Positions 1 to 49,100 of a DNA stretch of 64,000 bases are shown here, piece after piece; positions within the stretch are counted from its first letter, which is position 1, and the number at the start of each line of letters is the position of its first letter. The stretch lies in the NCBI GenBank assembly GCA_963662155.1, contig OY759261.1, positions 44,390,056 to 44,454,055 of the forward strand. The letters are read 5' to 3'. The translations under genes were made by a program, and so were the position numbers. The DNA is from Lamellibrachia columna (lineage: Eukaryota > Annelida > Polychaeta > Sabellida > Siboglinidae). The notes under the pieces are model-generated. The model searched no databases, was not told where the DNA came from, and saw nothing but the letters and a program-made list of their open reading frames with translations.

Positions 1-858
1 TCCGGAGTCAATGACGACATATGCACGGCCGAGCCTCGACGAGCAGTCGACAGTCCAACGGACAGTCCTGCTATCGTGCGATCACCACTAGATGCCGAGC
101 CAGGTACCCCAACCACTCGTCGCGGGCTGGTAAGCGAACTTCCTCATTCTCTAACCCAGCCGAGGCGAGGCTCCCGCTTGAAGTCAAAGCCACGGTGGCA
201 GCAGGACTTTGAGATGGACGTTAAGTAAATTCTTGAACAATGTTATTGATCAGAATTTTGACTTCAACATGTTACAGTAGTGTTAGTAGTTACATATAAT
301 AAGTTTGTCTTGCAGTAGTGTTTATGCCCATATCTTCTATTTTAATAAAAGGGGGATGTGACATATTTAATTATATGATGACCCCTAGCGATCATCAGTG
401 TACTACTGACGGAGGTCATTTTATGTTACTAGCCAATCAATACATAGAAGAGGTGTGTGCCGTGACCCCTACAATGGCGTGTTGTTGTGTTGAAATAATC
501 ACAGCATATTACAGTAACTTTTTTATGGGCCAGTAACTTTTTTAATTACAGCACAGACTTTTCTGACGTAATCGCTTCTATGAAACCCCAAGCTGGCAGT
601 CACTGGATGAAGACAGAGAGGCTACATTTATAGATATGTGACCGGCGACGCCGGTTCTACATAACACTGTTTCAAAAGAATATTCTCATCGAATTAAGCG
701 ACTCGCCGATCTGTTTGATGGGGCTGAGGTGTTCGACACTTCCAGTAAGGGTAAACTGGGGCAGTGCGCTCCCACTAAGGAAAACTGTCAAATTGTACAC
801 AGTACAACACAGTTGTATAGCCAGCGACTAAACACTTAATTGGTGTAAGGCTCAGACG
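1..858. other. No gene recognised
   Basis: Only short open frames without recognisable motifs. The stretch 680-840 on the plus strand can be read in pieces that might be a more N-terminal part of the MULE-like gene that follows (for example LADLFDGAEVFDT near 700-740), but this is weak. A short GGGCCAGTAACTTTT motif near 528 recurs near 47163 inside an hAT-like element and may be a small fragment of the same family. Confidence 0.4.
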
Positions 859-1157
859 TTGAATATGTTTATGATATGGGCTGATAATATATTGTGTTGT
901 GTAAACATCATTCGAGCACTTCCATCGACAAATGTGGATGATGCCAAGAAATATGTGGTGGCGAACATGCTACGAATGCGGCCAAGCAAGAAGCTGCTCC
1001 AGGCAGAGCTCATCAAAGACACTGGAAAATATACGATGATAAAGACGTCCACATTATCCAGACGAAGATAGCGCCAACGAGTGTTGAAGAGACACTGCTT
1101 GCTGAAATGAAGAACATTCCCGGTAAGAATGATGGAAACACTGTGTTCAATTTCTAG
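859..1157 (+). pseudogene. ZSWIM1/3-like MULE transposase relic, N-terminal part
   Basis: The plus strand encodes a segment with RPSKKLLQAEL followed by DTGKY, which I recognise as the region ahead of the catalytic domain in ZSWIM1/ZSWIM3-like proteins, a family derived from MULE transposases. After a one-base frameshift near 1035 the next frame continues with KDVHIIQTK and a segment rich in Glu and Leu (EETLLAEMKNIPG), ending at a stop near 1155. The order and spacing fit the family. The frameshift and the missing first catalytic Asp segment downstream show it is broken. The assignment rests on motif memory, not on a search. Confidence 0.65.
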
Positions 1158-1270
1158 TGGCCTGTCCTGTATTCATACGATTTTACAGTTTATCTACACC
1201 ATTCACGAAAAATAAACATGAAATATATATATTTTTTTAAAATTAACATTATTATAGTTATTTGACAGGC

Positions 1271-4200
1271 GAGACCGAGCTTGCTGCTCTGTGGATTGTC
1301 AAAAACGACGACTGTTCAACGGTAGACAAGATGACAAATTTCAAAGAAGACAACCCAGATAGAGTGTTCGTGTTGTTATGGAGGTTAAGGACAATGTGGA
1401 TGTGGTCCGTGTTGTTATGGAGGTTAAGGACAGGGTGGGTGTGGTCCGTGTTGCTATGGCGGTTAAGGACAAGGTGGATGTGGTCCGTGTTGTTATGGCG
1501 GTTAAGGACACGGTGGATGTGGTCCGTGTTGTTATGGCGGTTAAGGACAAGGTGGGTGTGGTCCGTGTTGTTATGGTTAAGGACAGGGTGGATGTGGTCC
1601 GTGTTGTTATGTCGGTTAAGGACAAGGTGGGTGTGGTCCGTGTTGTTATGGAGCTTAAGGACAGGGTGGATGTGGTCCGTGTTGGTATGGCGGTTAAGGA
1701 CAAGGTGGGTGTGGTCCGTGTTGTTATGGTTAAGGACAGGGTGGATGTGGTCCGTGTTGTTATGTCAGCTAAGGACACGGTGGATGTGGTGTGTGTTATT
1801 ATGGCGGTTAAGGACAGGGTGGATGTGGTCCGTGTTTTTATGGCGGCTAAGGACATGGTGGATGTGGTCCGTGTTGTTATGGCGGTTAAGGACAGGGTGG
1901 ATATGGTCCGTGTTGTTATGGCGGTTAATGACAAGGTGGGTGTGGTCCGTGTTGTTATGGTTAAGGACACGGTGGATGTGGTACGTGTTATTATGGTGGT
2001 TAAGGACAGGGTGAATGTGGTCCGTGTTGTTATGGCGGCTAAGGACACGGTGGATGTGGTCCGTGTTGTTATGGCGGTTAAGGACAGGTTGGATGTGGTC
2101 CGTGTTGTTATGGCGGTTAAGGACAAGGTGGATGTGGCCCGTGTTGTTATGGAGGTTAAGGACACAGTGGATGTGGTCCTTGTTGTTATGGCGGTTAAGG
2201 ACAAGGTGGATCGTGTTGTTATGGCAGTTAAGGACAAGGTGGATGTGGTCCGTGTTGTTATGGCGGTTAAGGACAGGGTGGATGTGGTCCGTGTTGTTAT
2301 GGCGGTTAAGGGCAGTGTGGATGTGGTCCATGTTGTTATGGCGGTTAAGGACAGGGTGGATGTGGTCCGTGTTGTTATGTCGGCTAAGGACACGGTGGAT
2401 GTGGTCCGTGTTGTTATGGCGGTTAAGGACACGGTGGATGTGGTCCGTGTTATTATGGCGGTTAAGGACAGGTTGGATGTGGTCCGTGTTGTTATGGCGG
2501 TTAAGGACAAGGTGGATGTGGTCCGTGTTATTATGGAGGTTAAGGACACAGTGGATGTGGGCCTTGTTATGGCGGTTAAGGACAAGGTGGATGTGGTCTG
2601 TGTTGTTATGGCGGTTAAGGACAAGGTGGATGTGGTCCGTGTTGTTATGGCGGTTAAGGACAAGGCGGATGTGGTCCGTGTTGTCATGGCGGTTAAGGAA
2701 AAGGTGGATGTGGTCCGTGTTATGGCGGTTAAGGATAAGGTGGGTGTGGTCCGTGTTGTTATGGTTAAGGACAGGGTGGATGTGGTCCGTGTTGTTATGT
2801 TGGCTAAGGACACGGTGGATGTGGTCCGTGTTGTTATGGTGGCTAAGGACACGGTGGATGTGGTCCGTTTTGTTATGGTGGTTAAGGACAGGTTGGATGT
2901 GGTCCGTGTTGTTATGGCGGTTAAGGACAAGGTGGATGTGGTCCGTGTTGTTATGGAGATTAAGGACAAGGTGGATGTGGTCCGTGTTGTTATGGCGGTT
3001 AAGGACAAGGCGGATGTGGTCCGTGTTGTCATGGCGGTTAAGGACAAGGTGGATGTGGTCCGTGTTGTTATGGCGGTTAAGGACAGGGTGAATGTGGTCC
3101 GTGTTGTTATGGCGGTTAAGGACAGGGTGGATGTGGTCCGTGTTGTTATGGCGGTTAAGGACAGGGTGGATGTGGTCCGTGTTGTTATGGCGGTTAAGGA
3201 CAGGGTGGGTGTGGTCCGTGTTGTTATGGCGGTTAAGGACAGGTTGGATGTTGTCTGTGTTGTTATGGCGGTTAAGGACAGGGTGGATGTGGTCCGTGTT
3301 GTTATGGCAGTTAAGGACAGGGTGGATGTGGTCCAAGTTGTTATGGCGGTTAAGGACAGGGTGGATGTTGTCCGTGTTGTCATGGCGGTTAAGGACAGGG
3401 TGGATATGGTTCATGTTGTCATGGCGGTTAAGGACAGGGTGGATGTGGTCCATGTTGTTATGGCGGTTAAGGACAGAGTGGATGTGGTCCGTGTTGTTAT
3501 GGTGGTTAAGGACAGGGTGGATAATTTCTTTGTTGTCATGGCGGTTAAGGACAGGGTGGATGTGGTCCGTGTTGTCATGGCGGTTAAGGACAGGGTGGAT
3601 GTGGTTCATGTTGTTATGGCGGTTAAGGACAGGGTGGATGTGGTCCGTGTTGTTATGGCGGTTAAGGACAGGGTGGATGTGGTCCGTGTTGTTATGGCGG
3701 TCAAGGACAGGGTGGATGTGGTCCGTGTTGTTATGGCGGTCAAGGACAGGGTGGATGTGGTCCGTGTTGTTATGGCGGTTAAGGACAGGGTGGATGTGGT
3801 CTGTGTTGTTATGGCGGTTAAGGACAGGGTGGATAATTTCCTTGTTGTCATGGCAGTTAAGGACAGGGTGGATGTGGTCCGTGTTGTCATGGCGGTTAAG
3901 GACAGGGTGGATATGGTTCATGTTGTTATGGCGGTTAAGGACAGGGTGGATGTGGTCCATGTTGTTATGGTGGTTAAGGACAGGGTGGATGTGGTCCGTG
4001 TTGTTATGGCGGTCAAGGACAGGGTGGATGTGGTCCGTGTTGTTATGGCGGTTAAGGACAGGGTGGATGTGGTCCATGTTGTTGTGCCGGTCAAGGACAG
4101 GGTGGATGTGGTCCGTGTTGTTATGGCGGTCAAGGACAGGGTGAATGTGGTCCGTGTTGTTATGGCGGTCAAGGACTTGGTGGATGTGGTCCGTGTTGTT

Positions 4201-4331
4201 ATGGCGGTCAAGGACTGGGTGGATGTGGTCCGTGTTGTTATGGCGGTTAAGGACAGGGTGGATGTGGTCCGAACACAGCTTCCCAGTGATTCGTTACTGT
4301 TCCATACGCAATGAACTTTCCAACGAGAGGT
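1271..4331 (+). pseudogene. ZSWIM1/3-like MULE transposase relic, central exon split by a minisatellite
   Basis: An acceptor-like TTTGACAG precedes 1271. The exon opens with GETELAALWIV and runs to FKEDNPDR near 1355, the part of the DDE domain just after the family's 'DGNGE' block. The next family motif, VRVVMADKD-like, is here the seed of about 75 tandem 39-bp copies (1363-4272) reading VVMAVKDRVDVVR. Entry into the array needs a frameshift of one or two bases near 1360. On leaving the array, the same frame continues with TQLPSDSLLFHTQ, then a TGA where the family has Arg (a CGA to TGA change), then TFQRE. The exon could end at GAG|GTAAGA (4331). The whole gene lies on the plus strand with the neighbouring relics. 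A working transposase is excluded; a repurposed, transcribed repeat protein cannot be excluded. Confidence 0.7.
1363..4272. repeat. 39-bp minisatellite, about 75 copies, inside MULE-like coding sequence
   Basis: The unit is 39 bp and reads as 13 codons, VVMAVKDRVDVVR, on the plus strand. A 978-residue open frame (1378-4314) crosses the entire array. Unit variants drop 3 or 6 bp (for example VVMVKD lacking Ala near 1573, 1728, 1957 and 2761), never leaving the frame. The right part (about 3090-4250) is homogeneous. The left part mixes K/R/T and D/G variants in a repeated order, so a higher-order repeat is present. Two minus frames and a second plus frame are also long open, because the unit itself lacks stops in them. 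Confidence 0.95.
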
Positions 4332-4410
4332 AAGAACGTACAAGATATGCATAACATCATCCCATCGTGATATGGGTATTTGTGTTTCTTGTCAACTGAT
4401 TTACATGCTA

Positions 4411-4546
4411 CATTGTTTATGTATGTGTGTGCTTCAAGCTGTGACATTGCTTATGTATGTGTGTGCTTCAGGCTGTGACATTGTTTATGTATGTGTGTGC
4501 TTCAGGCTGTGACATTGTTTATGTATGTGTGTGCTTCAGGCTGTGA
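4411..4546. repeat. 34-bp tandem repeat, 4 copies
   Basis: Four copies at an exact 34-bp spacing (CATTG at 4411, 4445, 4479, 4513). Each unit contains a TG-rich run ending in GTGCTTCAG or CTTCAAG, so each resembles a weak 3' splice site. It lies in the presumed intron between the array exon and the next MULE-like piece. Confidence 0.85.
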
Positions 4547-4779
4547 CATTATGGAACTGAGTTTCAAAATATATTTTTGAATAATCCTCTTTATCACTGT
4601 CAATCACTCAGCCATTCTTTCCGGTTGGCTTATTTGTGTTTTTCTCCATACTTGCAATACGAAGACGATGTAATAACGACGAGATAATTATAATAATAAA
4701 AATACGATATTTGAATTCTTTATTATGTCAACTGGAATAATTGTTCATGTGTATAGCTATGCATTATATAACGTTTTGA
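4547..4779. other. AT-rich intron-like stretch
   Basis: No coding signal. It lies between two recognisable pieces of the MULE-like relic and ends at TTTTGAAG, a possible acceptor. Confidence 0.4.
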
Positions 4780-4875
4780 AGGCGATGGGAGATGATCTTC
4801 ATGCTGACATACGCCAGAAATGAGGGTCACTACCAAGAAATGTACGCCAACTTTCAAGAGGCAACACCTCAACAT
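4780..4875 (+). pseudogene. ZSWIM1/3-like MULE transposase relic, post-catalytic helical exon
   Basis: In one open frame this reads WEMIFMLTYARNEGHYQEMY followed by ANFQEATPQH. It matches the family's region after the third catalytic block, where 'YA-S-E-YQ--Y---------P--VVDY' is typical. A GT follows Gln-His at 4876 (GTGTGT, a weak donor). The frame joins at phase 0 to GTTGTTGACTAC (Val-Val-Asp-Tyr) at 5829, as expected for the family. The intron therefore looks genuine and would be about 950 bp, with a LINE fragment inside it. Confidence 0.65.
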
Positions 4876-5215
4876 GTGTGTGCACTAATTTAGTACGATT
4901 TGTTTTGGAAAATATATATTTCAAAGTAAAATTGTATATATTTTGTTTAACATAGCAACGGCGTATAAATGAACACTTTGGCTGATAAGTGGTGTGATAT
5001 GATGGTTGATATGTTAAATCGATAGGTGATAGAAGGTATACCTATTGGCAGCCTACCGCCTGAATCGATATGTGCAGGTGGAATCATATTTATAATTAAC
5101 TGATGGTTGACTGAACAATTCTCATAAATACTAACCAAATATTTGCATCTGTGGTTGACATTTTCAGGTTCTGTACCTTGATATATATTTGGACTCCTGA
5201 ATTGGTATGTTGGAC

Positions 5216-5500
5216 TCTCAGTGAAAGACAGGAAGAAACTGGAGAGGATTGTCTTTGTGGCCGGCAAGATTATCGGCTCATCTCCCCCCTCCTTAGAACA
5301 ACTGTACACGGATCGAACCATACAGTAGGCAAAAACAATCATAGGTGATGAATCTCATCCAATGGTTCACCTGTTCCAGCTCCTTCCCTCAGGGAAGCGC
5401 CTCAGTTCGACGTATGCCAGAACAGAGATACAAAAGAACATTCTTACATAGTGTCATATCTCTTTACAACAGTCGGTGATTCCTTAGACACTTGAAATAT
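5216..5500 (+). pseudogene. LINE 3' coding fragment inside the MULE-like intron
   Basis: The plus strand reads KDRKKLERIVFVAGKIIG, then SLEQLY and, after one stop (TAG), DESHPMVHLFQLLPSGKR. This is the conserved C-terminal tail of jockey/CR1-type LINE reverse transcriptases, where 'P-F-LLPSGRR' is diagnostic. It is strongly 5' truncated and broken. It sits within the presumed intron 4876-5828, which suggests it inserted without disturbing the exons. Confidence 0.7.
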
Positions 5501-5828
5501 CAGCCAGTATGCACAGTCTGAATATGTGTATGTATGCATTCCTGCTTGTTGTAATACTTCATTGTTCGTTCATTCATCACTCACACCCTCACATCTCATC
5601 TATCCGCCCATCAGTTGTTCACCAACATGATCTCTCTGAATGCTATGATTACCTGTCTCAATATATGATATATGTGTATTTGCAGACATTTATCTTGATG
5701 TTGTAAGAAGAATTCTTCTTTAAAGAAGCAATACAGGTTATGTTATGTTATGTTACATTATTGTATATAAAAATACAATATTGTTCTGTATGTGTATACA
5801 TTTGTATGCAGGGTTATTTTCTTTGCAG

Positions 5829-6050
5829 GTTGTTGACTACATTAGCAAGCATTGGCACGATATACTCACTGAGTGGGCTGACGGGCTGAGATCAGAAATG
5901 ATAACACTACTGACAAGCACCAAGAATCTTGTTGAGACTACGAACCAGAAGTGAATGTGGTAATTGCTAACTGCAGCATCAGTTTGTCCACAGCCTGATG
6001 ACCATTGAGAGGGACCATCGCCTTCTGCTCGTCATCCAGACAGCGCCAGT
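5829..6050 (+). pseudogene. ZSWIM1/3-like MULE transposase relic, C-terminal core
   Basis: A CTTTGCAG acceptor precedes 5829. The frame reads VVDYISKHWHDILTEWADGL, then a stretch ending NLVETTNQK, closely following the family's 'VVDYFDKNW--I--EWV-G-----F-LG--TNNR-ES-NQK'. A stop follows. After a frame change near 5975, HSLMTIERDHRLLLVIQ continues the family's helical tail, which usually contains ERDH. This fixes identity and strand. The breaks show decay. Confidence 0.72.
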
Positions 6051-6071
6051 CTAGATTCATCGGGGTGACTC

Positions 6072-6172
6072 ACCATTACAGGGATACCTCACCATTACAG
6101 GGATACCTCAACATTACAGGGATACTTCAACATTACAGGGATGACTCACAATTACAGGGATACCTCAACATT
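6072..6172. repeat. 19-bp tandem repeat within the MULE-like relic tail
   Basis: About six degenerate copies of ATTACAGGGATACCTCAAC. They separate the ERDH segment from the last recognisable piece of the transposase (FTSYAFRFVSSEL), so this is a second, smaller tandem growth in the same gene. Confidence 0.8.
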
Positions 6173-6271
6173 TTCACCTCATACGCATTTCGTTTTGTCA
6201 GCAGCGAACTGGAAAAGAGAAGCCGGTTTGAGGAACGCGAAGAGCGTGGTAGGTGGGGAGACTGGGGCTAG
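6173..6271 (+). pseudogene. ZSWIM1/3-like MULE relic, last C-terminal piece
   Basis: The frame reads FTSYAFRFVSSELEKRSRF and stops at 6271. The family has a 'LTPYAF-FV--QL' block at this place, just before the SWIM zinc finger. No SWIM finger (CxCxnCxH) was recognised downstream, so the protein end is missing or lies in an unrecognised exon. Confidence 0.55.
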
Positions 6272-7620
6272 TTGTATACAGGAGCAAGCAATTCACTATT
6301 TCATATTCCATTAAATAACGTATAGTCCATTCACAATTGATTGCTATGTAAGAATCCTGGGAATTAATGCCCTTTGGTAGCTAAGAATGAACAGCTGAAA
6401 GAAATGTATTACACTGTGAACACCTACCTTTTCATGCACACTGTGTATAAAATGTGTGTGTAATCCAATTAATGTAATGACAGTATCATGTACGAGTTAC
6501 ACTTGCTTTGCGATCCATACGTTCTTTGCTGTAACAACGTGCCCTATATGATATGACAACTTGCCCTTCTTACGCGCCTGGAAATCTTCACATATCTACC
6601 TAACCACAATACGGAATATCAATGGTATGATATATTTTATTAATATGAATAATGAACTTTATGTATACGTTGACAGATATAACGCATATGTCATATTTAA
6701 AAAATCTTTAAATGCATATGTCATACCTAAAAAATTAAATTAACTTAAATTGTAACAACTAGCTACTGTCTCCCCTATGTTGTAGATTCTGGACACTGGA
6801 CACTGGGCACTTGTCTGAATCCTCTTGCAACTACGAGTTAATGAGAGCAATGGCACTGCCCTGCAGACACGTCTGCGCTGTGCGTGAACGTGGAAACCTG
6901 CCAGCGTAAGACAGCAACCTGGTGGGCAGCGCTGTATGTAGGATTACTACACACGCAGCCACAGAGTCTTGCAGACTGAGAGTCGCATTGACACTGCCAC
7001 AGGGGTAGTTGACAAGGCAATCACCACCGTCGCCGCATGAGAGGTTCCGACAGGCGACGGCAACAATGAAACGCCTTATTTGGTTTAAGTCAGGCGTTCT
7101 GACGAGGGAGTGCCGCCCCAATGGTGAACGCCATATTGGCAAGAGGACGTCATTATGTCATTGTTGAAGTGGAAGATCAAGTCGTTGACGAGGCGCACAA
7201 TCAAGCCGGAAACGAAACACACGACCAAGTCCGTAACGAACCGCACGATCAAGTCGGCAGAGGATGTGTCCCATATGGAAATGGTACGCTGACCACTCTC
7301 TCGGGGACATAAACATGTCTCTTGCGTGTGAGTCTTACCTGGAGAGGCACCACTTGACATGTTTGGGCAAGAAATCGCGATCAAAGGCAAAAACGTGAAT
7401 TTGTAGCATATGTGTGATTACACACAGTGCAAATGATTACTGTACTTTTGCATGCACTTGCTATTACCTGTTTTGCTAGCAGATATGTTGATTTGCTCAG
7501 TTTATCTGTTCGCTTGTGCATATATCGAGTGATTTTCTTGAATCACCATGGCCATCCATATCTTGCATTGCAATCTTAATTCATATCTTTTTTTCCAAGC
7601 ATTTGTCTAGTTTCATGAAG
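6272..7620. other. No gene recognised
   Basis: 6272-6780 is AT-rich and featureless. 6780-7390 has a higher GC content and overlapping open frames on both strands (about 100 aa on the minus strand with several Cys), but no motif I can name and no convincing start or splice sites. Confidence 0.4.
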
Positions 7621-13377: not shown

Positions 13378-14535
13378 TTAATTTGCGCAAAATGTTTGGA
13401 ACCAGTTTGACAAAACAACGTCATACCATTGCGACTTCAAGTGCACGCCATCCAGCGACCACTCAGACACTCCGAGCGACATGTCATAGATGTCGAAGAA
13501 CGTCGATATCTTCCCGTCTTTTATCGTAAATTCTGGCCGAAGGACATCGAAAAGTTCTCTGTTCAATCGCTCTATTTGCTCGTTGGTGTTATATTTGCCT
13601 TCGAAAGTGACGTTTATCCAGATCTTAGGTTTCTTCTGCAGGTTTTCGCTGATTTTGCTGAACCAGAACACTTGTGTCCGGTTAGGAACGTACATGTTAA
13701 TGAGAATCTTCAGGTAGTCAATGTAGGCACGTACTTTATTTTGTTCGTATCTCGCCTTGTCGTGACTCGACGAGAAAAGCAGTATGACATCCGGGTAGTT
13801 GCCCACAAGATATTCGCTAAGTATAAACTCCTGATTCGTGTTTGACTGGTGGCAACCTTGAGGAGTTTCCTGAGGACAGTTCACCTGCCACTGGTTTCGG
13901 ACCGTGGTCACTTCCGTGTCCTGGAAGAACTCCATCGCGATGTACTCGATATTTACTTTCAAAGATCCGTCTGAGCACGACTCGGTGATGCTTCTGCACC
14001 CACTGCAATCTCTGTAATGCACAACGATGTCTGAAGCCATCAGATTAGTCCCTTCTATGAAATAGTTCATGTCGGGGATTGTGAGTTCACTTTCAACTTT
14101 TACAGTGCGACATTTCATAGACTTTTCCAGAAGTCGTTTCAATGCGTTAAGGTACCGCAGTCCGTTGGAATCCCCAAGAACGACAAGTTTCGTGATGTTC
14201 CGTCGCGTCAGGCACTCGCGCAAGTATTCCTTCGGGATGTATCTGAAAGGGAGGCGACATGCATCTGGCAGGAAGGTCGAATTGACCCAGCGACCACCCG
14301 TCGGGAAGTAATTGTGTTCGATGCAATATTTCCTGATTACATCTACTGAACATAGAGGCACGTGTTTGAAGACATCAGCTGGTTTCGGTTTCTTCTGTTG
14401 AATCTTTCCACCCCATATCGATGATATCGCTGGCGGTGACCAGTAGAAAATCAGAAACCACAAATAGTACGCGCTGACTGCTACGACAGTTACAGCGATA
14501 GTACGTCGCGTTTTGTTCGAACAGGTCATCGTCAA
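13378..14535 (-). CDS. Type II membrane protein with SGNH/PC-esterase-like domain
   Basis: Intact single-exon ORF of 385 aa. Residues 1-11 are short and basic (NKTRR), followed by a hydrophobic span at about 12-32 (VTVVAVSAYYLWFLIFYW). This is a signal-anchor, so the bulk should face the Golgi lumen or cell exterior. Near residue 118, LVVLGDSNGLRYLNAL carries the GDS of an SGNH esterase block I. Near the C-terminus, SLDGVHLKSQWYD supplies a D-x-x-H pair. This layout is shared by PC-esterase, CAS1 and NXPE proteins, which in known cases modify glycans or act at the cell surface. Cysteines (about 12) and N-glycosylation sites (NST, NIT, NRT, NVT) fit a secreted-side domain. The start is the ATG ahead of the basic patch. 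I infer O-acyl esterase or transferase activity only from the fold. No introns and no disabling changes were seen, so it is probably functional or a young retrogene. Confidence 0.8.
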   Translation of the reverse strand: MTMTCSNKTRRTIAVTVVAVSAYYLWFLIFYWSPPAISSIWGGKIQQKKPKPADVFKHVPLCSVDVIRKYCIEHNYFPTGGRWVNSTFLPDACRLPFRYIPKEYLRECLTRRNITKLVVLGDSNGLRYLNALKRLLEKSMKCRTVKVESELTIPDMNYFIEGTNLMASDIVVHYRDCSGCRSITESCSDGSLKVNIEYIAMEFFQDTEVTTVRNQWQVNCPQETPQGCHQSNTNQEFILSEYLVGNYPDVILLFSSSHDKARYEQNKVRAYIDYLKILINMYVPNRTQVFWFSKISENLQKKPKIWINVTFEGKYNTNEQIERLNRELFDVLRPEFTIKDGKISTFFDIYDMSLGVSEWSLDGVHLKSQWYDVVLSNWFQTFCAN

Positions 14536-16130
14536 GTTCTACGGAACGTGATGATCACGAGCGACGCCGTTTTCGGTCAGACCAAATGGTCAAATACGTG
14601 TGTCTGAAACAGTAGACCAGTTCATCTGAGTGAGCTCTGTCAACAGGCTACGTTTAAAGAGAGCATCTGCTTAAAGAACCTGAAGCAGTACATACTTCAG
14701 AACACAATGTTGCATTGGTGGCCATTTTAACGTTTTGTCTCCTTATAAGAAAACTGAACCATTAAAAATTCTGAAAGAAAAATCACAGTCACCGCCATCA
14801 GGTCGTCGATATTCTGAGCACGTTTCGTCAAAATCACATGCTTTCAGCTATCTTAATCATGTCACAAACGCGCCTACCCTCAATATTGGCATTTTTTTGG
14901 TGCTAAATATTAATAATCCTACTGGTGTTGTGGGAATGTAACCACCAAAATAACTTCGCGTCTTCGAATCCGCTTCAAACTGCAACATCTCACTGCCAAA
15001 GGTGTAACATCTCACTGCCAAAGGTGTAACATCTCACTGCCAAAGGTGCGACATTTTGGACTTTCCAACCTCGCTTGCTGAATACAGTTACTTTTTGGCA
15101 AATAAAATAAGTGAAATAGGCTAAATTGCGTATTTTGGGCACTACATTTTCAGAAGTGTAACTGTCGTATGACCTCTATGTCGCTCTCAGGCAGATATGT
15201 CTTATATACGGCGACCTCTGCGGTTTACATCCTGGCACAATGTGGTAAGAACAAGAAAGAAAGACGCTTTCTCCATAGAAGGTTTGCACCTCGGGCGCCA
15301 AACTTACAGGGATTAATCTACGGACCCAACGAATGAAACGTAACGCCTTTATTTTTTTAAATACCCCGTATATTAAGGGTTCTTAGAGGTTTTATGGTAA
15401 ATCAAATGTTCGCTACGTAAAACGTTAACTTCCAACAATCGCAGAAACCACGCACGCGCGCGGCGAATACTTCGGTACGTAAACCGTTTGACAGTATGTA
15501 GCGCCATCTGGGCGGTTTATATTAATTATAGTCGAAAACATGCACCCACGTATTGGCCCGATGTCGCAGACCTAGGTATCCATGGGTCTAAATTCACGCG
15601 ACCTTCAACATTTCGAACATGCAACTAGTATTGCATCACGTGCGTGACGTGATTGTTTCTGGTAATACGTTTAACGTTCCCTTAAACAATCTCGAGGGAA
15701 TTGATGGCATATTGGCCTGAGGCATTTGGTATCATGACTGTTATCCTGTCCTGGGGACGGGCTTTTTGCTAGTATACTTAACTAGCTCATTTATACAACA
15801 GTGCGAGTTTTGATAGTGCATGTGTGCAGAAGGAGAAAGAACATGCATGAATAGTTGAGTGTATATATTGAAATATGTGTTATAATATGAAATATAAATG
15901 GTGATAGTATTGATGCTTGCATTTAAAATAGAATGTAAGTTCATGTAACTTTATTAACTAATATATATTTTTAATAATATTTTTAAGTGGTTAAATTCAA
16001 TAATTAAAATGGTATGGTTAGTATAAGATAATATTAGTGTATTATAGAAAATAATTTAAATTTCTAGAGGTAACACATATTTTAATCTGGTTAATATACC
16101 GTCCGTTTTGGAACAATTGTTTGATATATT
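14536..16130. other. No gene recognised; one short tandem repeat
   Basis: Upstream of the minus-strand gene. It contains a 22-bp triplicate at 14982-15049 and otherwise only short open frames. Confidence 0.45.
14982..15049. repeat. 22-bp tandem repeat, 3 copies
   Basis: AACATCTCACTGCCAAAGG recurs at 14984, 15006 and 15028, an exact 22-bp period. Confidence 0.9.
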
Positions 16131-19312: not shown

Positions 19313-20827
19313 TCACTTTTGTACATACTCCGCCAGACGCGCAGGTCTTTTCTTCTGTCTGGTTGATCGTCTGATGATCAGCGGTTCACGGCTAATCACC
19401 GTCTCGTTCAGGGTGATGCTATTTTTCGCGACAGGAACAGCTGCATAGCGTTGCAGGTCATGTGACAGAACTGGCACAGGTGGTACTGTCTCGCGTGTTC
19501 TTCTTAGATGCACCCGATTTCGCCTGTATGTGCCCTCAGGTGTATCTACCTCATACGAACGCTCATCCAGTCGTCTTTGCACAACAGCCTTTTCCCATTC
19601 CTTTTGTCCGTGACGAAATGGCTGCAGTCGGACCACATCCCCTTCTTCTAGGACGGGCAGATCTTTGGCAGTCTTGTTGTAGTGTTTGGCCTGTTTACAT
19701 TGCAAATCCTTGAGGCGGATTCTGTCTTGGTTCAGATACTCTTCCCCTCGCGGTGCTAGAAACTTGCTGGACATCGGAAATAATGTCCGGGTTCTCCTGT
19801 TCAGTAAACGTTGTGCCGGGCTGCTTCCCAGGCCTTGTGTTGGTGTGTTCCTGATCTCTAACAGAGCAAGATAGGGGTCTGTCTGCGATTTCTTGCATTT
19901 GCGGAACATCAACTTTGCAGCTTTGACAGCCGCTTCTGCTTTCCCATTGGCATTTTGGTGCCCTGGTGCACTTGTTTGATGCTCGAAATCCCATTTCGCA
20001 GCGAATGTGCAGAACTCTTCCGACACGTACTGAGGTCCGTTATCACTCACGACCACATATGGTATGCCAAATCTAGCAAAGTGTGACTTCAGCTGTTTAA
20101 TCACGCTTGTTGTGGTTGTTGAGTTTATTCTGTCAACTTCCAAGAAGTTACTTGTGTAGTCGACTATGACTTGATAGTCTCGTCCTTCCCAGCTGAACAA
20201 GTCTACACCAACTTTCTCCCATTGTAGCGTCGGTGTTTCATGTGTTATGAGGGTTTCTTTCTGTTGCGACCTCTCATACGATCTGCATGCCTCGCAGTTC
20301 TCAACGACTTGTCTGATGTCTGCCGCCATGTTCGGCCAGTACAGACATTCATGTGCTCTTCGTAGCACACTTTCCACTCCAAGGTGTGATCTGTGGAGAC
20401 ATTCTTTCGTGAGTTTCCGCATTCCCTCGGGAATAACAACTCGTTCTCCGCGGAATATCAGTCCGTCGCTGACAGCAAGTTCATCTCTCATGCTGAAGTA
20501 TGCATGGACACTAGCTGGTACTTCATGCCTCGACTCTGGCCAACTTCGCTGTATCACATGTTTCAACATCTGCAATGTCTCATCCCTGTCCGTGCAAGTC
20601 TTGAGCATTTGCATGCGTTCTGTGCTGATTGGTAGATGCCTCACTGCATTCACAGCACCGAAGTTGTCAGTACCTCCACTGTGCGGCAGGTATGACCTTG
20701 AGAGTGTATCAGCAATATACATATCTTTCCCTTTGTGGTATACGACTTCAGTGTCGTACTGCAACATGCGAAGGAGCATTCCTTGCAGTCTCCTTGGTGC
20801 TTTGTATAGCGGTTTCTTCACGATCAT
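19313..20827 (-). pseudogene. RNase H end and integrase of the retrotransposon
   Basis: A 504-aa open frame. It begins in RNase H (MIVKKPLYKAPRRLQGMLLR, then DTLSRSYLP). It then gives the HHCC zinc region (HRSHLGVESVLRRAHECLYW and CEACRSYE), the catalytic core with Asp in VGVDLF, Asp in VVSDNGPQY and Glu in NGKAEAAVKAAK, and a basic C-terminal part. It ends with ARLAEYVQK. All three integrase acidic residues are visible, and this segment alone looks intact. Confidence 0.88.
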
Positions 20828-20843
20828 TTCCAGTGGCTAGTGA

Positions 20844-21326
20844 TCACTGTGTACGATTGTTCTTCTCCCGAATGTATACTGATGGAAACGTTCCAACGCG
20901 AACACATTCTTTCTCGATTTGAGCATATCGAGTTTCTGTGCTGGTGAGCGCACGACTTGCATACCCAATGGGTTTCCCGTTCTGAAGGAGTGCAGCTCCC
21001 AGTCCTCTTTCACAAGCGTCACATTCTACGACTAACTCGCTGTGTGGGTCGTAGCATGCAAGAACGGGGGTCTCCGTCGTCAGCTTCTTTACTTTCGCCA
21101 TTGCTTCGTCTTGTTCTTTGGTCCATTGCCATAGAACATCAGGCTGAGTCGGTCTCCTGATGGGCTCCATAGCGCTGGAGAGGCCAGGTAGGAACTTCGA
21201 TAAGTATCCTATTGTTCCCTGCGACCTCTGAATTCCCTTGACATCTGTCGGGTTTTCAATCTTGAGGATTGCCTCTATCTTCCTTTCGTCAGGTTTCAAA
21301 CCCTCGCTGGTCACCCTGTGTCTCAT
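20844..21326 (-). pseudogene. RT thumb and RNase H of the retrotransposon
   Basis: [18 protein letters not shown] and [13 protein letters not shown] are the connection motif. [18 protein letters not shown] and [20 protein letters not shown] are RNase H blocks. An in-frame TAG near 20838, where Lys or Gln is expected, separates it from the rest of RNase H. Confidence 0.85.
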
Positions 21327-21856
21327 GAAGTTGATTTCATCGAGTCTGAACTCGCATTTGTTGTTGTTGTCAACTTCATGCCTGTTTCTCTACATCTCTG
21401 CAGCAACAGTCTCAACTTCTTGTCATGATCTTGTTCGTCACGCCCGAACACCACTATGTCATCGGCGACACATACGACTCCGTCCAAACCCTCCAGTGTT
21501 TGGTTCAATTTCCTCTGGAAGATCTCTGCACTAACATTCATTCCGAATGGTAGACGATTCCATCGGTATCTACCGAACGGCGTTATGATGGTGGTGAGCA
21601 GACTGCTTTCGTGATCTAGTTCACAGTGCCAGTAGCCCGATTGTAGGTCTACCTTTGAAAGGACTCTTGCAGTTGACATCTCTGGTAGCACCTCTTCCAT
21701 TGTCGGTAATGGGTACAGTTCTCGTTGTAGAACTTTGTTGAGTGGCCTCGGGTCAATGCATACTCGCATCCTTCTTTGTCTGAATTGAAATTTGGTTGCA
21801 CCACTCAGTCGGCTCCTCGATGGGACATATGACTCCACTCTCAACCATTCTGTCAA
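21323..21856 (-). pseudogene. Retrotransposon reverse transcriptase core
   Basis: RVCIDPRPLNKVLQRELYPL, SKVDLQSGYWHCEL, RLPFGMNVSAEIFQ and CVADDIVVFGRDE give motifs 2 to 5, with catalytic Asp in VDLQSGYW and in VADD. It overlaps the previous frame by about 100 bp through a frameshift and runs out of frame again near 21330. Confidence 0.85.
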
Positions 21857-22748
21857 GTTCAGATTTTAGCTTGGGTTTGAGTGCAACTGGCACTCTTCTG
21901 GCAGAACATTGTACAGGTTTTGCACCCTCTTCCACGTGAAGGTGTACCTTTCCCGGTAGGGTTCCTAGTCCGCTATCGAATACGTCGGCGTATTCATCCA
22001 ACAAGTTTGTTGTCATGACTTGATGAAGTAGCTTGAAACAGTCATAATTCACTGTTATTAGTTCCATCTTTTCTGCTGCATGTCGACCCAGAAGAGGAGT
22101 AAAGTTTCCTTCGACTACTTCGAACTGCACGGAGTAACTTGTTTGATTAACCGGGTTGACCAACGTTGCCAACGTTTTGCCTATGACCTCTCTCGTGGTC
22201 CTATTCCACATATGTAATGTGACAACAGATGGGTGAATGTCATCTTTGCTGACATACTTTTTCGGTAACACATTCACGGTTGTGCCACTGTCGATTTGAA
22301 ATTTCACGGATTTGTCGTTCATCCACATTTCGGCATATATTGGGCCTTTGGTGTATCTGCCTTTATCCAAGGCCATGATGGATTCTTCATAGGTGCGGCC
22401 ACACCGGTCCACCGTATGCACCTTCTTGTTTCCAATCTTGCAGCAGTTTGAGAAGTGGTTTCTTCCCAAGCATCTCCTACACGTTCTCCCCCATGCCGGG
22501 CAACATACTTTCTTTTGTGGGTGAGCTCGTCCACAGAATTTACACGTGCGTTTAGTGTCACCATCACTGTATGTGGCGTTTTGTCTTCGCTGCATTGTCC
22601 TTTGACTGCGTAAATTGCCAGGTTTCCAAGCTGAATTTTGTCTGTCAGCATCACCAGAGTGAGATTTCTTAATTTTGTGTATCTCTGCAGAGACATTGAC
22701 TGACTTCATCTGTGCCGTTGCCGCCTCGTCGGAACGGCATATGTCCAT
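21753..22748 (-). pseudogene. Gag zinc knuckles, protease and start of RT
   Basis: A 331-aa frame. CKFCGRAHPQKKVCCPAWG plus CRRCLGRNHFSNCC are two Cys/His knuckles (about residues 70-110). FQIDSGTTVNVLPKKYV holds the aspartic protease Asp-Ser-Gly. The frame enters the reverse transcriptase (RRVPVALKPKLKSELDRMVE, then PTEWCNQ) and then shifts near 21780. Confidence 0.82.
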
Positions 22749-22790
22749 GGCTGCTTGTAACGTGAGTTGCCGCTTTTGGAGCAGGTGTTT

Positions 22791-23300
22791 TCACGTTCCT
22801 GCGTCGTAGACGCCCATGACAATCCTATCTCTGATAAGTGAGTCGCTCATACAATCGCAGAAGTTGCATGATTTTGCGAGATTCCGTATCTCCGCCAGGT
22901 ATGAATCAAAGGATTCCTCGGTACCTTCGTTTCTTCTATTGAAAACGTACCGCTCATACGTTTCATTTATCTCGCCTTGTATAGCAGCATATATCTTTCT
23001 GATGATGAGAGTAGTGTCTTCTTTGTCTTCTTGTTCGGTGAACGTCAAGTTATCATACAGTCTGACACCTGTCGGCCCCATAACGTTGAGGAGCACTGCC
23101 AGTTGATATGGCTTCTCCTGCCGATTTAGTCTTGTAATGACAGCGTAGTTGTTAAACAAACGCTTAAACATCGTCCATTCTTCTTTGGGGCTGTCCTTTA
23201 AACACAGTTGTGGCGGTGGATTTATATTAGCTAACGGCGCCGCAGCCACCGCTTCTGCCACTGCCATCGTGACGGTGTTTTCACAAAAGACTATAGACAA
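22791..23300 (-). pseudogene. Retrotransposon gag-like ORF
   Basis: A 169-aa frame with a Pro-rich start (NINPPPQLCLKDSPKEEW) and a helical body containing RYVFNRRNEGTEESFDSYL and IRDRIVMGV. This is the capsid-like part of gypsy gag, where 'F--R-Q-----ES---Y---LR-L---C-F' and 'IRDR-V-G' are typical. It stops at 22791, and the next frame (from 22748) continues in another phase, so gag is cut short here. Confidence 0.8.
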
Positions 23301-23471
23301 TAAAACCGCGTTCGTTTCGCTGCCGTAAGCACTTGCTGCACTTTCAACACTCGCTCACGAGCGCTCGGATATTTCAGTGTACATTTCATTGGGTAGAAAT
23401 AACATTGTCCTTTACTCGCATGTTTGCGATCCTGGGGCTTAGGCTCACCTTATCCCCTCACTGCCACCATT

Positions 23472-25010: not shown

Positions 25011-25462
25011 TTGTTAAATTCAAAATTAACTATTGGATTAGTTTACCGAAGTCCAAACATAAACGAAGAGGATAACACAAAAATACAAAATGCTATAAAG
25101 GAAGTTAGTAAAGGGGAATGTATCATAATGGGAGATTTTAACCATGGACACAAACAATGGAAATCTCTAGAGAGTACGGGGGTGAGGACCAACAATTTCT
25201 ATTTTTAATTCAGGATAGCTTCTTTACATTGCACGTGCTAGAACCAACCAGGGGAGAAAATGTATTAGATATAGTTTTATCATCACAAAAAGAATTAGTG
25301 GACAATGTAAAAATACATGAACCATTGGGTAACAGTGACCACAATCAAATACATTTCGACATCAATGTAAAATCAGAAAGTAAAAATAAAAAAACGTATA
25401 GGAGAAACTTCCACAAAGGCAACTATAAAGATATGAGAAAATACTTAGCAAAGCTAGATTGA
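25011..25462 (+). pseudogene. LINE endonuclease C-terminal half
   Basis: LTIGLVYRSPNINEEDN, then ECIIMGDFNHGHKQW, then after a frameshift near 25200 FLIQDSFFTLHVLEPTRGEN, VLDIVLSS and LGNSDHNQIHFDI. GDFN, LDIV and SDH are apurinic-endonuclease blocks, including the catalytic Ser-Asp-His. A TGA ends the frame at 25462 and another frameshift follows near 25560. Confidence 0.85.
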
Positions 25463-25728
25463 AATAACATGCTGATGAATAAGACCGCAATTGAATGTTG
25501 GAATATTCTAAAATATGAAATTGAGAGTATCATCGATAAATTTGTTCCCTTGAAAAAAACAAGGAAAACGGTCTAGAAAGAAACACTTGTCAAAAGAAGC
25601 TATTAGAAAATAGTGTTTAAGCAAACTATGTGGAGGGTTTATAGGCGTACCAGAAAGGATGAAGACTGCAAATTACAAAGAGGCACTTAACCTAGATACA
25701 ACTGAAATTAGAAAATCTAAAAGAATCT

Positions 25729-27514
25729 ATGAAAAAAAAATTGGCAGGTAATATAAAAAATGACAGCAAGAGTTTCTATGCTTATGTAAGGAGTAAACAG
25801 AAAGTTCGAGATAAGGTCGGACCACTGGAAAACAACAGGGGAAACATAATTTCAGACTGGTGTCAAATGGCAGAGGTCCTGAATGAGTATTTCAGCTCAG
25901 TTTTTACCACAGAAGATATCAGTTCACTTCCAGTTCCATTGACTAAATTAGAGGGTAATAAATCAGAACATTTAGGGCAGTTATTTGTAACTCCTGAAAT
26001 GATAGCAAAGAAAATTAAGAAGATGAAAGATAATAAATCACCTGGAGTTGATGGGATACCACCAAAACTGCTAAAGGAAATTGTTGAGCAAATTAGTACA
26101 CCACTTGCAAAATTGTTTAACTTGTCACTAGAAGAAGGAATAGTTCCTTCAGAATGGAAAGAAGCAAATATTACGCCACTATTTAAGAAGGGATCGAGGA
26201 ACAAGCCAGAAAATAAATTACAGACCAGTGAGTTTAACATCAGTTGTATGTAAATTACTCGAAACATTAATTAGAGACCACATGGTGGAATTCCTTGTAA
26301 AACATAAATTAATAAATGCATCTCAACATGGGTTCCTGAAAGCAAGGTCATGTCTAACTAATCTCTTATGTTTTTTTGAAGAAATTACAAAGTGGGTAGA
26401 CGACGGGTCACCAGTGGATGTTGTCTACTGAGATTTTCAGAAAGCTTTCGATAAAGTGCCACATCAAAGATTGTTATTTAAACTAAAAGCCCATGGTATA
26501 GGTAATGATGTAATCAACTGGATAGAAAAGTGGCTTACACACAGAAGACAGAGAGTAATAGTAGATGGTGAGATTTCAAACTGGAAATCGGTTTTGAGTG
26601 GGGTACCACAGGGATCAGTATTAGGCCCTATACTGTTTTTAATATATATAAATGATGTGGAAGAAGACATATCTAGCAAAGTACTCAAATTTGCAGATGA
26701 CACAAAGGTATTCAGAAAGGTTACAAATGATACAGATAAACAAAGTTTACAGGATGATATAGATAAATTAGTTAAATGGTCAGAAAAATGGCAAATGTTA
26801 TTAAATTTTGGGAAGTGCAAATGTATACACATAGGACATGGAAACATGGACGAAGAATATAAAATGGGGGATGCTGTACTAGGTAGAACCACACAAGAAA
26901 AGGACTTAGGAGTAACATTTAGTGCTGACATGAAAGTTTCAGAGCAATGTGGGATTGCTGCTTCGTAAGGAAATCAAATTCTAGGGCTAATTAGGAGAAC
27001 TATCATGTATTAGGAGAAACAGCTAACTGTACCCCTGTACAAAGCAATAGTTAGACCACATTTGGAATATTGTATTCAGGCATGGAGGCCGTATCGTAAA
27101 AAGGACATAGACAAGCTAGAAAGAATACAACGAAGAGCAACTAAAATGATTCCAGAATTGAGAGACCTTAGTTACGAAAGTCGCTTATTACAATGTGGTT
27201 TGACAACACTAGAGACCAGGAGACTAAGAGGAGACCAAATAGAAGTGTTTAAAATAATGAACGGTTATGAGGATGTTGATAGGAATATGTTCTTCAAACT
27301 TAAAGAAGGCAGTAGAACAAGAGGACACAAAGCAGCATTAGTTAAGGAGCAGTGTAGGTTGGACATGAGAAAGTACTCGTTCTCACAGAGGGTGATAAAT
27401 GAATGGAACAAACTGCCAAATGCTAGTAGTGTGAATATGTTTAAAAATAGAATTGACAGATATTTGATAAGGGCGGGCTACACAGAGATGAGAAAATTGT
27501 TGGACTCTCGATAA
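25729..27514 (+). pseudogene. LINE reverse transcriptase, interrupted by four breaks
   Basis: NKSPGVDGIPPKLLKEIVEQ (block 0), EWKEANITPLFKKGSRNKPE (block 1), a frameshift near 26225, SLTSVVCKLLETLIRDHMVE (block 2), a TGA inside the D-F-QKAFDKVPHQRL block (26432), GVPQGSVLGPILFLIYINDV and KFADDTKVFRKV (catalytic FADD), a stop near 26967, then LEYCIQAWRPYRKKDIDKLE and KYSFSQRVINEWNKLP (thumb and tail). All domains are present in order, so decay is recent compared with the LINEs at 16-18 kb. Confidence 0.88.
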
Positions 27515-31529: not shown

Positions 31530-32895
31530 AAGTCAGAGAATTACAGACCAGTGAGTTTAACGTCAGTGATTTGTAAAGTATTAGAAAGGTTAATTAAAGA
31601 CCATATGGTGGACTTCCTCGTTAAGCATAAATTATTAAATTCATCTCAACATGGATTCCTTAAAGCGAGGTCATGCTTAACAAATATGTTATGTTTTTTG
31701 GAAGAAATCACTAAGTGGATAGACGTGGGATCGCCAGTAGATATTATCTACTTAGATTTTCAGAAAGCTTTTGACAAAGTGCCACATCAAAGATTACTAC
31801 TTTAATTAAAAGCCCACGGTATCGGGGATAGGATAACTGACTGGATAGAACAATGGCTGACTGACAGAAGACAACGAGTTGTAGCAGATGGAGAAGTTTC
31901 AAATTGGAAATCGGTTTTAAGTGGGGTACCTCAAGGATCAGTATTAGGACCTATATTATTCTTAATATATATCAATGACTCGGACGATAGTATAACAAGT
32001 AACGTACTGAAATTTGCGGATGACACAAAACTGTTTAGAAAGGTTAATACTTATGGTGATAAACAACATTTACAAAACGATCTAGACAGATTAGTGAAAT
32101 GGTCTGAGAAATGGCAGATGTTGTTCAATTTTGGGAAATGTAAATGCCTACATACAGGACATGGGATGTAAACTATAAAATGGGAGATACTGTTCTGGGT
32201 ACTACTGTAAAAGGACTTAGGAGTTACAATAAGCGCTGATATGAAAGTTTCAGAGCAGTGTGGTATTGCAGCTTCAAAGGGTAATCAAATTCTTAGATTG
32301 ATTAGAAGAAACATAACATACAAGGGAAAAAAGTTAATTATACCTCTTTATAAAGCAATAGTTAGACCTCATTTAGAATACTGTATACAAGCATGGAGAC
32401 CATATCGTAAGAAGGATATAAATACGCTTGAACGCATACAAAGGAGAGCAACTAAAATGATTCCAGAACTGAGAGACCTTAGTTATGAAGAACGCCTGAA
32501 AGAATGTGGTTTAACAACTCTAGAGACAAGGAGGTTAAGAGGAGATCAGATTGAAGTTTCTAAGATATTGAATGGGTATGAAAATATTGATAGAAATATG
32601 TTTTTCTCACTCAAGAAGGATAGCAGAACTAGAGGACATGAGGTAAAATTAGTAAAGGATCAATGTAGATTGGATATCAGGAAGCACTCGTTCTCACAGA
32701 GGACAATACATGAATGGAACAAATTGTCTACAGATTGTGTAACTTCTAGCAGCGTGAATATGTTTAAAAACAAGGTTGACACATATTTCAGGAGGGCGGG
32801 TTATATAAGTAGATGAATATTGTTGGACTCTCGATACGTCAATGGCTTCCTTGTCCACTTGCTATCTGGGCATTTGGCTTGGATGGCAAATCTTG
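31530..32895 (+). mobile_element. Second copy of the CR1/jockey-like LINE, 5' truncated
   Basis: It starts within the reverse transcriptase, just before SLTSVICKVLERLIKDHMVD, and runs through YLDFQKAFDKVPHQRL, GVPQGSVLGPILFLIYINDS, KFADDTKLFRKV, LEYCIQAWRPYRKKDINTLE and KHSFSQRTIHEWNKL. The stop is at 32814-32816. The 3' UTR (TTGGACTCTCGATACGTCAA) ends in repeated AATCTTGTTAA, the probable 3' tail motif. Breaks near 31803 (TAA) and 32165-32200. 5' truncation inside RT is typical of target-primed reverse transcription. It inserted at the edge of repeat R2. Confidence 0.88.
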
Positions 32896-46100: not shown

Positions 46101-49100
46101 GCGCTATAAAAGAACTTACCTTAACCATTACTTTTAGTGTGACAGCATATTGTTCATCCCACACATAGAAACAAATTGTTAGAACAGTATTCCATGATAT
46201 CCAGCAGGCCTCGACATTAACGCTGGCCCGGCACTTTTTGGGGGCTGTTGGGCCAGTTGGGGGCCACAAATTTTCATATTTTACTGGCTGAATGGACTAC
46301 CATAGTTTAAGATCGTTTTTATCTGATTGTGACAGCCACAGGTAATCGTTTCAATCGCTTTTCCTTGCCATCTACCCTGGCACTACAGTTAAAAACGGAC
46401 GCCTATATTAGGGTTGCACAGTGTTACCAGTATATCGGTATATCACAGCATTTTCTGCCCGGCACTTTTTGGGGGCTGTTGGGCCAGTTGGGGGCCACAA
46501 ATTTTCATATTTTACTGGCTGAATGGACTACCATAGTTTAAGATCGTTTTTATCTGATTGTGACAGCCACAGGTAATCGTTTCAATCGCTTTTCCTTGCC
46601 ATCTACCCTGGCACTACAGTTAAAAACGGACGCCTATATTAGGGTTGCACAGTGTTACCAGTATATCGGTATATCACAGCATTTTCTGCTGCATAATACG
46701 TATTGGGTAGCGCGATACACCTTCGACATACCAATTTCATATAAAGCAACTGGTTCGCGGACTGTCTGCTAGGTGTCACATTGCAGGACCTGCTCACAAA
46801 TAGCTAAGTTTACCGTAACTTTGTACTTCAGTCCAAAAGTTTATATTCGAAAGAAATAAAACTCAGTTGTAACAGTCATAATTATATACACTGTCACGTC
46901 CGGTTTGTATGTCGTATTTTTTAGTATAACTAGCTGTGACTCGATATGGATTGTTAAAAATGCCAACAGTGCAGCATCACCCATTGTTCTTAAACGCGTC
47001 TCAAATAATTCCAGCTGCAGCATTGTCTGCCATTGCTGACAGAAGGCATAAAAGTAAATTACCAACGGTAAAAGAAATAGTGACCAAACTCGCATCCTTC
47101 AACATGTAATGCGGTGTATTGCAAAAATTGTGTTTTTTAAATCAATTTATTAAAACAAAATTTGGGCCAGTAACATTTTGTGGGGGCCAGTAACTTTTAA
47201 AATCTATCAGCCCAATGAGGCACTCGGTACAAAAGCTTAATGTCAAAACCTGATCCGACATAACTTGGAACATTTAATAATTATTTGAATAACAATAATT
47301 TCATTGTTAGGGAGTTTACATCTAACCCATGGCCAATGCTGCCACAGAAACCTTAATTATTAACCCAAGCAGTAACAATTTCCCATGATATATCTTACTA
47401 GAGATACGCAACATTAAAAATGATCATAGATGAAGCAAAGAGAATCTCCTTATTATCTGAAGTGTTCTGTTTGTTAATAGCATCTGAAGATATCTCGAGA
47501 GGAAAGATACAAAAAAGAGAAACACTACAAGATGAAGGCCAGGCTTGGTAGAGGTGCATATGGTGAATGCTTCCTTGCCGTCGACCTGGTGACAAGCTTT
47601 CTGTTTGTAATAAAATCGGTAAATCTTATTTATTTATCTTACTCACTGTTACATGCCATGCCAAACACTCCACTATGATAATAGTATACATTTGTAGCAG
47701 TTCACAAAGTAGTTGATGTTTGCGGGTATCTGAATATGTGGTAGACAATTGCATTGAGAACTATTTGACGTGTGACTAACACTGGCACCTGTCTCTGTGT
47801 GACCCACCAGCTGGGGGAACTCGTTAAATTCACTAAGACTCACAATCAGATGGATCAATGGATGTATTTGACACATTTCTTTATCTATTCTATCAAGTAG
47901 TTAGTGACTGTGTATTCACTCCATCTCCGTCAATGTTGCATATTTGTTTTAAATTACATTAAAAACAATTCGCAATTCCCCGGGGGATGTGGATATTATA
48001 ACAGAACCTGTGGATGTTTCACATAGATTCCGTAACTCAAAACAATAGGAGAATGTAGTTACATGCAGTTGTTTGCAATGCATGGAGTCATAAGCTCTTG
48101 CAATAGTTGTCTTTTCTCCTGTGCAATGCCGGGCATCTCAGTTAGTGTACTATGAAACAAGAAACTACAACATTAACTAAAAAAAAACAAGGGGGTCACT
48201 TTACCATGAGGGTCAATATACCATTGTCGGATATTGACCACCGGGTCACTTTAATACTATTTGACACTGCTGGTAGTGATAAGACAACATTAGTATTATT
48301 ATATTCATTATCTCTGACAGATATGTGGGTGGCAGAAGGATAAAGATTGGAAAACAGCATTCAACGAGACAAGAATACTGTGTCGCCTGGACAAGCTCTA
48401 TGGATGTATAGCCAGCGAAGAAGAGTTCCTCATCTTCATGGAGTACATACCTAGTAAGCAGCTCTGTTTCTTCCATTACAGCTCATATCTCTGTGTCAGT
48501 CACATGTAATGTCTCTTCTTCCATTACAGCTCACATCTCTGTGTCAGTCACATGTAATGTCTCTTCTTCCATTACAGCTCAAATCTCTGTGTCAGTCACA
48601 TGTAATGTCTCTTCTTCCATTACAGCTCACATCTCTGTGTCAGTCACATGTAATGTCAATTCTTCAATTACAGCTCATATCTCTGTGACAGTCACATATA
48701 ATGTCACTTCTTCCATTACAGCTCACATCTCTGTGTCAGTCACATGTAATGTCAATTCTTCAATTACAGCTCATATCTCTGTGACAGTCACATATAATGT
48801 CACTTCTTCCATTACAGCTCACATCTCTGTGTCAGTCACATGTAATGTCAATTCTTCAATTACAGCTCATATCTCTGTGTCAGTCACATGTAATGTCTCT
48901 TCTTCCATTACAGCTCACATCTCTGTGTCAGTCACATGTAATGTCAATTCTTCAATTACAGCTCATATCTCTGTGACAGTCACATATAATGTCACTTCTT
49001 CCATTACAGCTCACATCTCTGTGTCAGTCACATGTAATGTCAATTCTTCAATTACAGCTCATATCTCTGTGACAGTCACATGTAATGTCACTTCTTCCAT

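Follow-up and report, generated by a model that had tools for sequence, protein, structure and literature searches.

The locus raises the question of how a tandem array with a very long open frame came to lie within the remains of a gene, and whether that frame has any coding meaning. In the window (the whole stretch of 64,000 nucleotides that was analysed), positions 1369–4271 on the plus strand are occupied by a 39-bp minisatellite of 75 units, delimited by TRF, by splitting into units and by fitting one unit between the flanks against the protein family. TRF reports 75.1 copies with 90% matches and a score of 4602, which is far beyond chance. The unit is CGTGTTGTTATGGCGGTTAAGGACAGGGTGGATGTGGTC, translated in the array frame as RVVMAVKDRVDVV; this frame is open from 1363 to 4314 (983 codons), with a stop immediately 5′ of 1363. 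Head-to-tail units of 39 bp in 75.1 copies lie within the range of minisatellites (about 10–100 bp), and the copy number varies: the four segment copies in this one assembly have 52, 61, 75 and 76 units. Arrays with a period of 10–100 are found at 26 places in the window and make up 15.2% of its bases, so that this array is unexceptional here except in its size and source.

The source was sought among the ZSWIM1/3-like proteins. The genome (879.7 Mb in 30 contigs) contains at least 64 matches to PF21056 (ZSWIM1-3_RNaseH-like), counted by place, and ORFs of the loci L001, L005, L010 and L025 carry both PF21056 and PF10551 (MULE) above the cut-off. Thirty loci fetched from the same genome yielded 13 non-redundant ORFs with 170 or more residues; the family profile built from these was used to scan the 204 open pieces (15 residues or longer) in the six frames of window positions 1–7000. 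Five plus-strand pieces are collinear with the family, covering profile positions 111–141, 180–209, 202–231, 230–271 and 368–397. Three of them are clear: the block LTYARNEGHYQEMYANFQEATPQHV at 4780–4890 (profile 202–231, i-E 0.0089); the block VVDYISKHWHDILTEWADGLRSEM..NQK at 5826–5951, which is followed by a stop (profile 230–271, i-E 4e-5 for the piece 5724–5951; L025 with E 4e-8 in tblastn against the 30 loci); and the SWIM-finger block SSCNYELMRAMALPCRHVCAVRERGNLP at 6814–6903 (profile 368–397, i-E 6.4e-5 for the piece 6763–6906). The pieces nearest the array, 1247–2011 and 4315–4509, are weak when taken alone. The preliminary description, made from the letters only, had proposed a set of exon pieces to be aligned with the family. 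The SWIM finger was absent from that set. One further piece, 6069–6311, matches profile positions 431–473 weakly (E 1.1–1.2) and outside the family order. Another weak piece, 5488–5703 (0.4, profile 278–330), would suit the order. Further upstream, an N-terminal block (..YVVANMLRMRPSKKLLQAELIKDTGKYTMIK..) at 862–1068 on the plus strand was recognised by tblastn against the 30 loci (L029, E 3e-4; L010, E 4e-4); it has no useful match to the ORF profile (E 11), which begins further in. No block corresponding to profile positions of about 45–110 appeared in the scan of 1–7000.

The gene is broken, as judged by eye from frame changes, stops and the loss of a finger Cys, which by the motif rule we take to be one Cys of CxC. 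We assume that the second catalytic Asp of MULE transposases is the Asp of the D-K-D motif. In the unit consensus this residue is Val, and the first MULE Asp block was not found in the profile scan of 1–7000; the DDE set of a MULE transposase is thus incomplete. In Pfam, the pieces of the window matched neither ZSWIM, at the curated PF21056 cut-off, nor MULE. For the left ORF, a protein search produced two candidates, neither of which scored; no relative of the N-terminal piece came up in viral_contigs, and NCBIfam applied to two relatives yielded only distant IS transposase matches, in L001. As its sequence reads, the locus in the window is related to ZSWIM1/3 but broken, and is not a working member of the family.

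The array lies within an exon-like block at 1269–4329 (plus strand) that consists of a left family piece, the 39-bp array and a right family piece. It is bordered by predicted splice-like AG/GT signals, noted by eye: TTGACAG before 1269 and GAGAG/GTAAGA after 4329. The left flank GETELAALWIVKNDDCSTVDKMTNFKEDNPDRV at 1268–1366 is the family block preceding the D-K-D motif. It is placed by the profile (positions 111–141; i-E 6.9, tenth in rank for the piece 1247–2011, with two minus-strand pieces ranking higher) and by tblastn against the 30 loci (L009, E 0.002), and its bases are identical in L051 and L052. The right flank at 4270–4329, RTQLPSDSLLFHTQ followed by TGA and TFQRE, is the block after the motif; the piece beyond the stop (TFQREV.., 4315–4509) matches profile positions 180–209 with an i-E of 0.16. 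In relatives from the same genome the corresponding region reads ...GESVVVGLWIVANEERATISGPMDIFAKHNDTASIKCVMADKDMVERDIIARNYP (L025) and ...KVAMVMTDKDMTERNVFGRAFPQATMHLCLFHVLRTFRRQI (L010), which supports the earlier view of the flanks as consecutive blocks of a ZSWIM1/3-like, MULE-related protein. The 39-bp array of about 75 units is likewise confirmed, and the coordinates and peptides given for it earlier are right. On the right, TQLPSDSLLFHTQ is read in the frame of the array, and the TGA at 4312–4314 stands between it and TFQRE. The left peptide GETELAALWIV...NPDRV is read in a frame different from that of the array, and both this frame break and the right-hand TGA are identical in all four array copies read. 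The array ORF alone (1363–4311) does not match the family profile.

At least four similar segments, each with an array of its own length, are located on the same contig (C1). The arrays start at 44188531, 44291858, 44391424 (window position 1369) and 44506204, with 52, 61, 75 and 76 units, respectively. When 31 bases of the unit were searched for, allowing three mismatches at most, 287 places were counted, all in forward orientation; 232 of these (46 + 53 + 66 + 67) are inside the four arrays, and the other 55, unplaced, may belong to an array elsewhere, although an origin of the repeat at another place was not seen. The order of units is largely common to the segment copies, and the larger differences are changes of whole units. 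Comparison of three copies revealed a 15-unit block (window units 36–50), a 10-unit block and single units gained or lost; when L062 is compared with L051 and L052, the 15- and 10-unit blocks break into scattered units. Substitutions in aligned units of the first three copies amount to 0.35–0.57%, not above the main flank pieces (0.5–1.6%). Pieces beside a neighbouring 34-bp repeat diverge by 3.8–5.7% between copies. Of six further stretches taken from the neighbourhood of copy 2, three agree with the window (97.6, 100 and 99.7%), L057 has no window match over 150 bp where one was expected, and L058 and L059 are outside the part covered by the window and thus uninformative.

Did the unit itself come from the missing family block? 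The array probably arose from codons of the gene's own exon, as far as protein-level comparison can tell. Left flank, one unit and right flank aligned together to the family core score 24.1 bits, compared to 15.5 bits when the unit is omitted. The true frame and rotation ranks first of 78, two other rotations reaching 22.5–22.6, and the array is positioned where the family block is missing. Origin from the catalytic-core block, as put forward in the preliminary description, is therefore probable on the score between the flanks, but the case is weaker than claimed and mixed by relative. Shuffled 13-residue units score 16.85 on average (sd 2.35, best 31.5) and 12 of 1000 reach the real score. 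With L025 none of 500 shuffles attains the score of the unit, though one of 12 rotations does; with nine other single relatives 13–88 of 500 shuffles attain it, and with L021, L023 and L027 the corresponding 205–262 of 500 mean no signal. The unit is also two residues shorter than the family block, and a Val takes the place of the Asp seen in most relatives. An Asp at codon 6 is not found in any of 188 units of three copies (L062 being outside this count). These statistics are moderate, and amplification of the gene's own codons is what we infer from them together with the position of the array. The same shuffles, the poor result with most single relatives, the missing Asp and the 55 unit matches outside the four known arrays are what one would cite for a minisatellite born elsewhere or from non-coding DNA and inserted into the exon, its VMADKD likeness being due to chance. 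The position of the array, the first rank of the true frame and rotation and the L025 result speak against such an insertion, and we consider it rather unlikely. In our judgement it is probable that a stretch of 39 bp in a decayed ZSWIM1/3-type exon was amplified and became a neutral, length-unstable minisatellite. According to this reading, a ZSWIM1/3-type gene of MULE-transposase descent would have decayed in the genome, and within its D-K-D exon either slippage during replication or unequal exchange would have duplicated the 39 bp that encode R-V-V-M-A-[D to V]-K-D-...-V, slippage being the presumed first step. Further amplification, singly and in blocks, would then have led to 52–76 units. 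The open frame would follow by chance from a stop-free unit and indels in multiples of three, not from translation.

There are two further explanations to consider, one for the segment copies and one for the open frame. Some of the segment copies could be assembly duplicates, i.e. haplotypes placed in tandem, and then the unit numbers would partly be alleles or artefacts and would not describe paralogues; this concerns the segment copies and not the array itself. Main flank pieces that are 98.4–99.9% identical between copies fit such an explanation, and so does a 1501-bp stretch near copy 2 that is 100% identical to the window while another is 97.6% identical. On the other hand, at least four copies, spaced by 103.3, 99.6 and 114.8 kb, exceed two haplotypes, and there are unit changes specific to single copies. 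Assembly duplication is therefore possible but doubtful to us; the segments could be either a tandem segmental duplication or assembly duplicates, and the length of the array varies in both cases. Regarding the open frame, it had been suggested that the array makes up a repeat-protein frame of about 3 kb. This is not supported because the frames are broken on both sides, with the left flank off-frame and a TGA 14 codons past the last unit, and no codon constraint was found either among the window units or between copies. The 75 window units contain 43 distinct substitutions, distributed over codon positions as 14/16/13; 33 are non-synonymous and 10 synonymous, as compared to 31.5 and 11.3 expected without selection. 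Between copies the non-synonymous/synonymous counts for six overlapping pairs are 6/1, 10/3 and 5/2, then 5/1, 11/1 and 14/3. It is true that the frame is free of stops in the four copies read, but with only 0.3 stop-making substitutions expected this says little. Indels in the window are of four distinct kinds, every one a multiple of three, and the four array lengths are likewise divisible by three; this leans toward coding, although the events are few and GTT-GTT slips might yield 3-bp indels without selection. A translated array, i.e. a repeat protein of about 980 residues built from a transposase motif and held in frame by selection, would also agree with the predicted splice-like signals around the block and with the presence of other arrays in the family: L004–L007 and L009 have a 27-bp array at about 2734–3279 with 9.2–17.3 copies, reading by eye as TATSTTSVP repeats in the L005 ORF. 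Judged by this reading, a coding minisatellite is more likely to be found among these 27-bp arrays than in the 39-bp array, for which selection on a translated frame seems very improbable. That one of its many ATGs or splicing gives rise to a protein of variable length from a transposase active-site motif is hardly to be expected, and the array presumably has no product.

The preferred reading, amplification within a decayed exon, makes the array probably an unstable minisatellite derived from a transposable element, a kind that is already known. Ahmed and Liang (2012; PMC3389668) attribute 23% of human minisatellites and satellites to transposable elements, and our array would resemble these in that the unit is probably a piece of an element-derived sequence expanded locally. 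It would differ in source, since many of the human cases come from Alu, ERV and L1 and here the probable source is a coding exon of a MULE-related gene. The model of Haber and Louis (1998), as related in PMC6947457, places minisatellite birth between short flanking repeats. A short unit that is first duplicated and later lengthened through slippage, conversion or unequal exchange would agree with our case; the edges of the array, however, have just a short imperfect repeat (AGAGTG/AGGGTG), so a first step between flanking repeats would be conjectural here. Compared with ZSWIM1/3 proteins that have PF21056 and PF10551 MULE, the window copy has the consecutive family blocks and a degenerate SWIM finger, but it is frame-broken several times and carries the array. 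None of the titles and abstract openings covered describes a minisatellite derived from an exon of ZSWIM or MULE type. The locus is a readable natural record of the way in which a minisatellite can start in a former protein exon and then change by whole units and blocks, and a single assembly offers four aligned versions of it. It also warns that, where the length of a repeat unit is divisible by three, a long open frame does not speak for a gene.

Several other features of the window were noted. A 48-bp array of about 70 units lies at 48468–51802, and a 490-codon open frame (48412–49884) spans its first part. At 46226–46689 there are two copies of a 231-bp direct duplication, 100% identical. 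Long ORFs at 19313–23354 (minus strand), 25142–27514 (plus) and 31806–32816 (plus) resemble by eye what we take to be retrotransposon gag/pol and LINE reverse transcriptase. An open frame of 386 codons is present at 13378–14538 on the minus strand.
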